DNA of 64,000 nt, taken from contig NZ_AP018560.1 of the NCBI RefSeq assembly GCF_003967035.1, positions 1,387,001-1,451,000 on the forward strand. Direction: 5' to 3'. Position numbers and translations under genes: made by a program. Origin of the DNA: Aerosticca soli (GTDB taxonomy: Bacteria; Pseudomonadota; Gammaproteobacteria; Xanthomonadales; Rhodanobacteraceae). Position 1 is the first letter of the stretch, and every line of letters begins with the position of its first letter. Under the pieces are notes generated by a model. The model searched no databases. It was not told where the DNA came from and was given only the letters and a program-made list of their open reading frames with translations. Positions 28,472 through 32,264 of the stretch are shown here, piece after piece.

Positions 28472-28665
28472 AGACGCAGCCGAACGAGGCGGTTTCATCC
28501 GGGACGGTTCGCATCGCGCAGCGATGGCATGAGCCGTCGTCACGGCACCGTGCATGTGCCGCGCGGCGGGGATGGGAACGGTTTGGCCGCTTTCCCCGCG
28601 GCGCTTGCTTTTGCACGGCCGCTCCGTTTGGATGGGCGACTTACCTCTCCCACGGAACCATCGTC

Positions 28666-29034
28666 ATGATCGAACAGATGAGCGACCTGCCGGCCGGCGC
28701 GCTCGGTTTCCGCGCCCACGGCCAGGTCACCGCCGACGACTTCAAGAACGTCATCATGCCCGACATCGAGGCGGCCTTTGCGCTCTATCCCAAGCTGCGC
28801 GTCCTGTTCGAACTCGGCCCGGACTTCACCGGCTTCGACCCGGGGGCGGTATGGGACGAGATCAACCTGCGCGTACGCCACATCAGCGGACTGGAACGAC
28901 TGGCCGTGGTCACCGACATCGGCTGGCTGCGGCCGGTGGCGCGCCTGATCGACCTGGCGCTGCCCGGCGAGGTGCGCGTCTTTCCCCATGCCGAGCTCGA
29001 CCAGGCCCGCCGCTGGGTCTGCGAGGGTCTTTGA
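28666..29034 (+). CDS. SpoIIAA-like / STAS-related protein
   Basis: This 122-residue single-domain protein begins MIEQMSDLPAGALGFRAHGQVTADDF. It contains LRVLFELGPDFTGFDPGAVWDEI and LERLAVVTDIGWLRPVARLI, typical of the SpoIIAA-like family (PF11964), whose fold resembles anti-sigma factor antagonists and Sec14 domains. A role in membrane or protein-partner binding is possible; none is established. The start was taken at the ATG following the GGAACC stretch. The 194 bases upstream hold no gene I can support. Confidence 0.8.
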   Translation: MIEQMSDLPAGALGFRAHGQVTADDFKNVIMPDIEAAFALYPKLRVLFELGPDFTGFDPGAVWDEINLRVRHISGLERLAVVTDIGWLRPVARLIDLALPGEVRVFPHAELDQARRWVCEGL

Positions 29035-29081
29035 AAAATCACGCTTGCATCGACGCGGCGATTCTGCTTTAGTCCAAAGCC

Positions 29082-29198
29082 ATGTCCCCATCCGTTGCCC
29101 GCCTTACTCATCTCGCCGTCGTCGACGGCGGCGTGCGCGTGCGCAATGGCAACAACGGCCTCAATAACGGCAATCGCCGAAGGCGGGCCTGCGCGTAG
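29082..29198 (+). CDS. Asn-rich leader peptide upstream of asnB
   Basis: A 38-codon frame (ATG 29082, TAG 29196) lies between the SpoIIAA-like gene and asnB. Codons 22-31 read N-G-N-N-G-L-N-N-G-N: six Asn in ten codons, three of them AAT although the genome favours AAC. The next codons encode RRRRACA and overlap a segment that can pair with the downstream hairpin. This is the layout of a ribosome-stalling leader sensing charged tRNA-Asn. There is no clear Shine-Dalgarno sequence before the ATG. It is too short to be found by ordinary gene callers. Translation is inferred, not shown. Confidence 0.7.
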   Translation: MSPSVARLTHLAVVDGGVRVRNGNNGLNNGNRRRRACA

Positions 29199-29245
29199 AC
29201 ATCATCGGCAAACTGCAACCTGATGAATCTTCCGAAGGCCCGCCT
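29181..29245 (+). promoter_or_regulatory. Predicted antiterminator pairing of the asnB attenuator
   Basis: AGGCGGGCCT (29181-29190), inside the last codons of the leader frame, is the exact complement of AGGCCCGCCT (29236-29245), the 5' arm of the downstream terminator hairpin. The first segment nearly copies the terminator's 3' arm. A ribosome stalled on the Asn codons would leave 29181-29190 free to capture the 5' arm and prevent termination. A ribosome reaching the leader stop at 29196 would cover it. A small self-hairpin CGCC-GAA-GGCG (29175-29185) may compete. Confidence 0.65.
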
Positions 29246-29271
29246 CGAACCCGAGGCGGGCCTTCGCGTTT
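29233..29271 (+). terminator. Attenuator terminator hairpin before asnB
   Basis: A perfect 15-bp stem (CGAAGGCCCGCCTCG at 29233-29247 with its complement at 29252-29266) closes a four-base loop AACC, followed by CGTTT. The U-run is short, so release may be inefficient or pause-dependent. It lies between the leader frame and the asnB start (40 bases further on), so it can only act as a conditional stop for asnB or an end point for upstream transcripts. Confidence 0.75.
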
Positions 29272-29311
29272 CCAGCACCCTCTACTTAACTCACCGGCAG
29301 GCAAATCTTCC

Positions 29312-30994
29312 ATGTGTTCGATCCTGGGCATCTTCGACCTCGCCCCTGGCGATGATCTTTCCGCCCTGCGCCGGCTGGCGCTGGAGCTCTCGCAGCGTCA
29401 GCGTCATCGCGGCCCGGACTGGAGCGGCGTCTACGTCGACGATGGCGCCATCCTGGTCCATGAGCGCCTGGCCATCGTCGATCCGGCCAGCGGCGCGCAA
29501 CCCTTGCTGTCGCGCGACGGCACGCTCGCGCTGGCGGTGAATGGCGAGATCTACAACCACCGTGAGCTGCGCGCGGCCAGCGCCTACGACTTCACCACCG
29601 GCTCGGACTGCGAGGTGATCAACGCGCTCTATCGCGAGCTCGGCCCGGAACGCTTCGCTGCCGAGGGCGTCGGTCGGCTCAACGGCATCTTCGCCTTCGC
29701 GCTGTGGGATGCCGCCACGCGGCGCTACCTGATCGCGCGCGACCCGATCGGCGTGTGTCCGCTGTACTGGGGCCACGACAGCGTGGGCCGGCTGTGCGTG
29801 GCTTCGGAAATGAAGTCGCTGGTCGGGGTGTGCGCGGACGTGGCGCCGTTCCCGCCCGGCCACGTCTACGACAGCGCCAGCGGCACGCTGCATCGTTATT
29901 ACGACAAGCCCTGGCGCGACTACGCCGCCACCCGCGGCAGGCAGGTCGCGCCCGCCGAGCTGCGCCGGGCCTTCGAGCAGGCGGTGCATCGCCAGTTGAT
30001 GACCGACGTGCCCTACGGCGTGTTGCTCTCCGGCGGGCTGGATTCCTCGCTGGTCGCCGCCTGCGCGGCCAAGTTCGCCCGCGAACGGGTCGAGGACGAC
30101 GATCGCAGCGAAGCGTGGTGGCCGCGCCTGCATTCCTTCGCCATCGGCCTGGAAGGCTCGCCCGACCTCGCCGCCGCGCAGGTGGCCGCCGACGCGCTCG
30201 GCACCGTGCACCACGGCTTCGTCTACACCTTCGCCGAAGGGCTGGACGCGCTGCCGGAGGTGATCCGTCACATCGAAAGCTACGACGTCACCACCGTGCG
30301 CGCCTCCACGCCGATGTACCTGCTCGCACGGCGCATCAAGGCGATGGGCGTGAAGATGGTGCTCTCGGGCGAGGGTTCTGATGAGATCTTCGGCGGCTAC
30401 CTCTACTTCCACAAGGCGCCGTCGCCGGAAGCCTTCCACGAGGAAACCGTGCGCAAGCTCGATGCGCTGCACAGCTATGACTGCCTGCGCGCCAACAAGG
30501 CGATGATGGCCTGGGGCGTGGAGGCGCGCGTGCCGTTCCTCGACCTCGACTTCCTCGACGTGGCGATGGGCATGGACGCACGCTACAAGATGGCCGGCAA
30601 CGGACGCATCGAGAAGGCCGTGCTGCGCGAAGCCTTCGACGGCGCGTTGCCGGATACGATCCTGTGGCGGCAGAAGGAACAGTTCAGCGACGGCGTCGGC
30701 TACGGCTGGATCGACGGGCTCAAGGCGCACGCCGAAGCCGCCGTGAGCGACCGCGAGTTCGCCGCCGCTGCGGCGCGCTTTCCGTACAACACGCCGGCCA
30801 CCAAAGAGGCGTACCTGTACCGCGCGATCTTCGAGCGCTTCTTCCCCGGCGAGGCCTGCGCGGCCACGGTGCCGGGCGGCAAGTCGATCGCCTGCTCCTC
30901 GCCCGCGGCGCTGGCCTGGGATCCGGCCTTCGCCGCCATGGCCGATCCGTCCGGGCGCGCCGTGCGTGGCGTGCATGCGCAGGCGCTGGCCTGA
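29312..30994 (+). CDS. asnB: Asparagine synthetase (glutamine-hydrolysing)
   Basis: It makes asparagine from aspartate, glutamine and ATP. The 560-residue protein begins MCSILGIFD, with Cys2 as the glutaminase nucleophile after Met removal. RHRGPDWSG, LAVNGEIYNHRELR and the ATP-pyrophosphatase motif SGGLDSS (240-246) follow, with SGEGSDEIFGGYLYF in the synthetase domain. Length matches E. coli AsnB. It is preceded by a leader frame and hairpin that suggest control by asparaginyl-tRNA supply. Confidence 0.96.
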   Translation: MCSILGIFDLAPGDDLSALRRLALELSQRQRHRGPDWSGVYVDDGAILVHERLAIVDPASGAQPLLSRDGTLALAVNGEIYNHRELRAASAYDFTTGSDCEVINALYRELGPERFAAEGVGRLNGIFAFALWDAATRRYLIARDPIGVCPLYWGHDSVGRLCVASEMKSLVGVCADVAPFPPGHVYDSASGTLHRYYDKPWRDYAATRGRQVAPAELRRAFEQAVHRQLMTDVPYGVLLSGGLDSSLVAACAAKFARERVEDDDRSEAWWPRLHSFAIGLEGSPDLAAAQVAADALGTVHHGFVYTFAEGLDALPEVIRHIESYDVTTVRASTPMYLLARRIKAMGVKMVLSGEGSDEIFGGYLYFHKAPSPEAFHEETVRKLDALHSYDCLRANKAMMAWGVEARVPFLDLDFLDVAMGMDARYKMAGNGRIEKAVLREAFDGALPDTILWRQKEQFSDGVGYGWIDGLKAHAEAAVSDREFAAAAARFPYNTPATKEAYLYRAIFERFFPGEACAATVPGGKSIACSSPAALAWDPAFAAMADPSGRAVRGVHAQALA

Positions 30995-31016: not shown

Positions 31017-31051
31017 ATCCGGCCTTGTCCAAGATGGCGCCAAGGCCGGAT
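31017..31051 (+). terminator. Hairpin after asnB, possible terminator
   Basis: A perfect 11-bp stem ATCCGGCCTTG/CAAGGCCGGAT (31017-31027 and 31041-31051) with a 13-base loop lies 22 bases past the asnB stop. There is no U-run (GCTTGTG follows), so it may stabilise the 3' end or act with Rho rather than terminate by itself. Confidence 0.4.
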
Positions 31052-31138
31052 GCTTGTGCGGCGACGGTGGCATGGGAGACGGCGACGACCAGCCGCTCTG
31101 CTAACATGCATAGTTCTTTTTCCCAATGTTCGACATCC

Positions 31139-32264
31139 ATGATCGAGACCAATCCGATCCTTGCGCAGATCGCGGACCTCAAGGCCCGCGTCGAGTCGCT
31201 TAGGGGGTATCTTTGACTATCCGGCCCGACGCGAACGGCTGGAAGAAGTAACCCGCGAGCTGGAAAACCCCGCCGTCTGGGACGATCCCAAGCGTGCCCA
31301 GGAACTGGGCCGCGAACGCGCCAGACTCGAGCACATCGTCGGCGGCATCGACCGCATCAGCGCCGGGCTGGCCGATGCCGGCGAGCTGCTCGAGCTGGCC
31401 GCCGATGAAGGGGATGAATCCTCGCTCAAGTCCATCGCCGACGACGTCGCCCGGCTCTCCGGCGAGGTCGAGCGGCTGGAATTCAACCGCATGTTCTCGG
31501 GCCCGATGGACGCGGCCAACGCCTTCGTCGACATCCAGGCCGGCGCCGGCGGTACCGAGGCGCAGGACTGGGCCGAGATGCTGCTGCGCATGTACCTGCG
31601 CTGGTGCGAATCGCGCGGTTGGAAGACCGAGCTCATGGAAGTGAGTCCGGGCGAGGTGGCCGGAATCAAGTCGGCCACGTTCCGCGTCGAGGGCGATCAT
31701 GCCTACGGCTGGCTCAAGACCGAGACCGGCGTGCACCGGCTGGTGCGCAAGAGTCCCTTCGATTCGGACAACCGCCGCCACACCAGCTTCAGCAGCGTGT
31801 TCGTCTCGCCGGAAGTGGACGACGACATCGACATCGAGATCAACCCGGCCGACCTCAAGACCGATGTCTACCGCTCCTCCGGCGCGGGTGGCCAGCACGT
31901 CAACAAGACCGAGTCGGCGGTGCGCATCACCCACGTGCCGAGCGGCATCGTGGTCGCCTGCCAGACCGAGCGTTCCCAGCACGCCAACCGCGACCGGGCG
32001 ATGAAAATGCTCAAGGCGCGGCTCTATGAGCTCGAGCTGCAGAAGCGCAACGCCGAGAAGGCGGCGCTGGAGGCTTCCAAGTCCGACATCGGCTGGGGCA
32101 GCCAGATCCGCAACTACGTACTCGACCAGAGCCGCATCAAGGACCTGCGCACCGGCATCGAACGCACCGATACGCAAAAGGTGCTCGACGGTGACCTCGA
32201 TGCCTTCGTCGAAGCCAGCCTGAAGTCCGGACTCGACGCCGGCGCCAAGCGCGCCGACGCCTGA
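31139..32264 (+). CDS. prfB: Peptide chain release factor 2, with programmed +1 frameshift
   Basis: RF2 recognises UAA and UGA stop codons and releases the nascent chain. The coding sequence is joined from 31139-31213 and 31215-32264, skipping one T, to give 374 residues. The 25-codon first part ([14 protein letters not shown]...RGYL) ends at an in-frame TGA. The second part carries the SPF tripeptide ([12 protein letters not shown]) for stop-codon recognition and the GGQ motif at residues 250-252, the same position as in E. coli RF2. It lies upstream of lysS, as in many proteobacteria. Confidence 0.95.
31202..31217 (+). promoter_or_regulatory. RF2 autoregulatory frameshift site
   Basis: The sequence AGGGGGTATCTTTGAC is the canonical prfB recoding signal. 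A Shine-Dalgarno-like AGGGGG (31202-31207) is spaced by TAT from the slippery CTT (31211-31213) and the in-frame TGA stop with a following C (31214-31217). When RF2 is scarce the ribosome slips +1 and completes the protein. Confidence 0.95.

Follow-up and report, generated by a model that had tools for sequence, protein, structure and literature searches.

Upstream of asnB we find an element that carries, at the level of sequence, the hallmarks of a ribosome-mediated transcription attenuator with asparagine (Asn) as the sensed amino acid. In all likelihood it senses Asn through charged tRNA-Asn and controls asnB by this route, very probably switching the gene on under asparagine shortage. Ribosome-mediated attenuation controls the his, trp, thr, ilv, leu and phe operons in proteobacteria, and we know of no described Asn attenuator controlling asnB. 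Searches of Rfam and of open-access papers turned up no such attenuator; an earlier mention in the subscription literature is possible. The window, i.e., the whole 64-kb stretch of DNA that was analysed (positions 1387001–1451000 of contig 1 of a 2.87-Mb genome), holds the following parts.

29045–29050, plus strand: -35 element TTGCAT of the leader promoter, read from the sequence, with a 17-nt spacer
29065–29073, plus strand: extended -10 element TGcTTTAGT, read from the sequence, ending 8 nt before the leader ATG
29082–29198, plus strand: leader ORF for a predicted leaderless leader peptide (38 codons and TAG), from sequence and relatives
29145–29174, plus strand: Asn-codon cluster, the predicted sensing segment (six of the ten codons 22–31), with Asn kept in relatives and AAC/AAT varying
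29181–29190, plus strand: antiterminator segment AGGCGGGCCT, overlapping the last leader codons and pairing with 29236–29245
29233–29266, plus strand: predicted intrinsic terminator, a 15-bp hairpin with loop AACC and the weak T tract CGTTTCC behind it
29312–30994, plus strand: asnB, glutamine-hydrolysing asparagine synthase B, the putative controlled gene, over the cut-offs of NF006949 and TIGR01536

We propose that transcription would begin at or beside the leader AUG, and that a ribosome would load on this 5' AUG and trail the RNA polymerase. With Asn-tRNA plentiful, the ribosome would get to the UAG at 29196 and cover the antiterminator (29181–29190), so that the hairpin at 29233–29266 could form and transcription would end before asnB. 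With Asn-tRNA scarce, it would stall in the Asn run (29145–29174) and leave the antiterminator free to capture the hairpin's 5' arm while its 3' arm has yet to be made, resulting in read-through into asnB. The transcription start, leader translation, stalling, termination and the response to Asn are what we infer in this scheme; its parts, their conservation, the exclusive pairings, the spacing, the promoter-to-ATG distance and the presence of an asparaginyl-tRNA synthetase (AsnRS) come from sequence and comparison.

The leader ORF encodes MSPSVARLTHLAVVDGGVRVRNGNNGLNNGNRRRRACA, with Asn at codons 22, 24, 25, 28, 29 and 31, which confirms the preliminary description of a 38-codon frame with six Asn in codons 22–31. 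Nothing comparable was seen in the background: among ca. 110,000 ten-residue windows taken from six-frame open stretches in the rest of the 64 kb, none had more than four Asn and a single one had exactly four. AsnB was searched in 119 relatives and the regions upstream of asnB were then compared; with named genomes included, 92 distinct leader loci were analysed. A short ORF clustering codons of one amino acid, with at least four Asn per ten codons, is present in 86 of them, although such counts are somewhat inflated, the leaders having been chosen by their Asn content. Over all 92 leaders, Asn is encoded by 311 AAC and 288 AAT codons, and given this variation it is the amino acid, and not the DNA, that is kept. 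The AAT share of Asn codons is 48% in the leaders vs 12.6% in asnB, an excess that may keep the run unstructured or favour stalling. The whole leader folds at z = -5.5 relative to dinucleotide shuffles.

An Asn-rich ORF of this kind could also encode a small functional peptide, or its terminated leader RNA could act in trans as an sRNA, with cis attenuation playing a minor part. This has a precedent in Sinorhizobium meliloti, where the leaderless trpL attenuator releases two products that act in trans, the RNA rnTrpL and the peptide peTrpL (PMC7298713). We judge it very unlikely as the main explanation here: the peptides (20–45 aa in the 92 loci) vary in sequence and are poorly conserved outside the Asn cluster, yet the spacing and the terminator pairing are kept, and the S. 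meliloti case itself demonstrates that cis and trans roles can coexist.

The metabolic setting is consistent with Asn sensing. The downstream gene scores 852 bits against the asparagine synthase B equivalog NF006949 (cut-off 499), bearing out its earlier identification as asnB. AsnRS (TIGR00457) is found over the curated cut-off in this genome and in 116 of the 119 relatives, and so tRNA-Asn is charged from free Asn, the product of AsnB. At 31025–32264 of the window, prfB (release factor 2) is seemingly split into a short upstream frame and a main frame, which resembles its usual programmed +1 frameshift.

Within Xanthomonadales, an Asn-rich leader precedes the orthologous asnB in all 58 sampled loci, 48 of them in the same family and seven and three in two further families of the order. 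The leader-bearing genera include Rhodanobacter, Dyella, Fulvimonas and Frateuria among Rhodanobacteraceae, and Xanthomonas, Stenotrophomonas, Pseudoxanthomonas, Lysobacter, Luteimonas, Thermomonas and Arenimonas among Xanthomonadaceae/Lysobacteraceae. Both the Asn cluster and the alternative pairing are kept through Rhodanobacteraceae and Xanthomonadaceae, the result that the preliminary description had hoped for from an alignment of relatives; their absence there would, by its own terms, have refuted the attenuator. The leader of L034 (G020) lies farther upstream, outside the parsed stretch, and was found by a covariance model. This model, built on the Rhodanobacteraceae element, gave one strong match per genome, coinciding with the asnB leaders; the six weaker full-length matches that were read as candidate additional copies proved to be gene-end terminators or the like, with no Asn leader. 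The leader is absent from all 24 more distant asnB genes of the order (ca. 71% identity or less) and from the asnB orthologs of Vibrio, Shewanella, Aeromonas, Rheinheimera, Colwellia and others examined. Asn-rich frames do occur before asnB in AT-rich gammaproteobacteria (e.g., L154, L241 and L262), and we take them as chance because no terminator lies between frame and gene. As attenuator controls, the hisG and aspartokinase loci of this same genome presented no obvious leader peptide at the ends examined, and we draw no conclusion from them.

Some loci have features of their own. In five Rhodanobacteraceae (L007, L008, L009, L027 and L034) the palindromic repeats CGGCCATCCATGGCCG and GCGCGGATCCATCCGCGC lie between terminator and asnB, and in L034 this stretch is a repeated array of such units. 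The asnB genes of Rhodococcus sp. RD6.2 (L098), a Holophagales MAG (L104) and a Deltaproteobacteria MAG (L120) nest in the Xanthomonadales clade and have no leader; they may reflect horizontal transfer without the attenuator, or contamination and mis-binned contigs.

The proposed switch would depend on two pairings that exclude each other. The hairpin has perfectly complementary 15-bp arms (29233–29247 and 29252–29266), and AGGCGGGCCT is the exact reverse complement of 29236–29245 within its 5' arm, so the free segment and the perfect 15-bp hairpin of the preliminary description are both confirmed by their coordinates. Following the hairpin, the T tract is weak in the window, and the matching hairpins of relatives mostly have longer ones; GC-rich hairpins lie between leader ORF and asnB throughout the 92 loci, mostly with T tracts. 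The antiterminator helix of the window comprises 10 Watson-Crick pairs and recurred by chance in two of 5000 segment shuffles. In nearly all loci the last part of the leader ORF holds a segment complementary to the terminator 5' arm, with a pairing score of 21.8 for the locus's own segments vs 14.0 (sd 2.8) for shuffled ones, and over 50 Rhodanobacteraceae loci 96.5% of the antiterminator alignment cells are paired vs 31–58% when the alignment is slid. Between lineages the antiterminator and terminator sequences differ, and inside each they match: GCGGGCC with GGCCCGC in Rhodanobacteraceae, GATGCGGG with CCCGCATC in Xanthomonas and Stenotrophomonas, and CGCGGGC with GCCCGCG in several Lysobacter relatives. 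In Lysobacter ruishenii the pair is GCAGGCC with GGCCTGC, and its terminator 3' arm keeps a G and hence a G-U pair. The helix, the pairing frequency and these co-changes together back the mutually exclusive pairings that had been proposed. Compensatory changes, the other sign that had been hoped for, are seen between lineages but not inside the family: no covariation above shuffles was detected in the antiterminator core of the 50 Rhodanobacteraceae loci, and because this core is almost invariant there, such support is poor within the family and rests on the between-lineage differences.

Rhodanobacteraceae loci also have a second short helix joining the stop region to the bases 5' of the terminator; its strands are GCGCGT and ACGCG in one group of loci and GCGTGT and ACACGC in another, and the window copy does not have it. 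In four Frateuria-like loci (L032, L036, L038 and L096) the best antiterminator is short or placed differently. Upstream of asnB in L041 the usual antiterminator core is lost, and a GATCT/AGATC complementarity is found close to the stop and ahead of the terminator. Applied to 51 full leaders, RNAalifold mainly recovered the terminator.

Folding was modelled on the RNA as it stands before the terminator 3' arm is made, with the ribosome either stalled or at the stop. The predicted median probability of the antiterminator is 0.93 with the ribosome at the first Asn and 0.97 at the middle Asn. A ribosome at the leader stop would cover the antiterminator (median overlap 100% in the folding geometry across loci), and in a Stenotrophomonas-type locus (L102), where the stop lies farther on, the overlap is 38%. 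Even with no ribosome the antiterminator is predicted in many loci (mean 0.59, median 0.79), and for this reason a classical protector (1:2) hairpin appears weak or absent. A small hairpin between the Asn codons and the antiterminator occurs in two registers with few compensatory changes. The ORF-internal hairpin is slightly more stable than codon shuffles (mean z -0.5), and we do not claim it as an RNA-polymerase pause site.

The promoter is strongly conserved. A TTGnnn motif lies 17–19 nt from the -10 in 89 of the 92 loci (17 nt in 74), and the TG extension of the -10 is present in Rhodanobacteraceae at 94% (T) and 98% (G). The distance from the end of the -10 to the leader ATG is 5–9 nt (6–7 nt in 84/92 loci), which places the predicted transcription start on or next to the AUG, in the window at about 29080–29082. 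A Shine-Dalgarno-like 4-mer is found before 10 of the 92 leader starts vs 87 of the 92 asnB starts, and so, with a promoter this close and no Shine-Dalgarno, the Xanthomonadales leader ORF appears to be leaderless. This promoter also bears on another possibility, that the hairpin constitutively terminates the upstream gene (whose ORF ends at 29034) or simply acts as a brake on transcription, and that the Asn-rich ORF is there by chance. A strong hairpin ca. 200 nt past the end of a same-strand gene would fit such a role, and these genomes commonly contain terminators that resemble it in sequence, as the weak covariance-model matches indicate. However, the conserved promoter sits between that gene and the hairpin, and Asn codons, frame and antiterminator are kept in 92 loci with no comparable Asn cluster in the window background; we therefore hold a constitutive terminator or brake to be very unlikely.

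Least probable of all, in our view, is that control is exerted not by ribosome stalling but by an RNA that binds Asn or tRNA, such as a T-box or riboswitch, or by attenuation of translation at the start of asnB. T-boxes often control amino-acid genes in Firmicutes and Actinobacteria, but an Rfam search of 28500–29700 yielded no family over its gathering score (the best was Thr_leader at 21 bits, cut-off 55) and no T-box covariance match. Between the end of the hairpin and the asnB ATG at 29312 lie 45 bases (the preliminary description had put this at 41), which leaves the start uncovered, and either mechanism would leave the selection on Asn codons unexplained. The comparison supports the attenuation first suggested for this element, and we consider ribosome-mediated transcription attenuation with a new amino-acid specificity the best reading of the sequences.

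A second Asn leader, antiterminator and terminator, in a layout unlike that of Xanthomonadales, precedes asnB in Rubricoccaceae (Rhodothermota), i.e., in L138, a Rubrivirga-type MAG, and in five related genomes of its order (L206–L209 and L216). The leaders (e.g., MTRILNNANRNPVSWRRRECRRALV) are followed by a GC-rich terminator and a T tract. With the 3' arm left out of the fold, an antiterminator is predicted at each of the six loci, lineage-specific in sequence (e.g., GGAGG.GGC, GAGGGGTTGC). The starts (TTG, GTG or ATG, uncertain) lie roughly 20–25 nt after the -10, so none of these ORFs is leaderless. The element is missing from five further asnB genes in the same order (L210–L214). In a maximum-likelihood AsnB tree the leader genes of Xanthomonadales and Rubricoccaceae form two separate, fully supported groups with leader-less genes standing between them, which favours two origins and suggests that the Rubricoccaceae leader arose independently, the less likely alternative being loss in the intervening lineages. 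On balance we incline to regard Asn-specific attenuation of asnB as a hitherto unrecognised kind of regulation with at least two origins, one giving the leaderless form of Xanthomonadales and the other the Rubricoccaceae form with its short 5' UTR, and absent from Xanthomonadales-type asnB in other phyla.

If so, asparagine joins the few amino acids that are sensed when ribosomes stall at leader codons, and asnB gains a directly testable control in the order to which Xanthomonas, Stenotrophomonas and Lysobacter belong. With its apparently leaderless start, the element could help to show how attenuation proceeds if the first ribosome has to load on a bare 5' AUG. Its occurrence in a second phylum suggests that such switches evolve readily.

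Like the his, trp, thr, ilv, leu and phe attenuators, the element has a leader run of the regulated amino acid, an intrinsic terminator, an exclusive antiterminator and a stop beside the antiterminator. It departs from them in the predicted sensing of Asn and control of asnB, in its apparently leaderless leader and in having no clear conserved protector hairpin. The Firmicutes have Asn-specific T-boxes that sense tRNA-Asn charging and control asparagine genes; there the RNA binds the tRNA directly with no translated leader, and what is shared is the sensing of tRNA-Asn charging. Polycysteine leaderless short ORFs of mycobacteria reportedly act as attenuators, in work by Canestrari et al. from 2020 that is cited in PMC13236596, and judging by its title they too combine a leaderless short ORF, a run of a single amino acid and an attenuator, the amino acid being Cys and the bacteria Actinobacteria. 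The apparently leaderless start is shared with trpL/rnTrpL of the proteobacterium S. meliloti, whose leader ORF begins at the 5' end of the transcript (PMC7298713). It differs in class and gene, and in sensing Trp where the present element would sense Asn, and a trans function is known for trpL.
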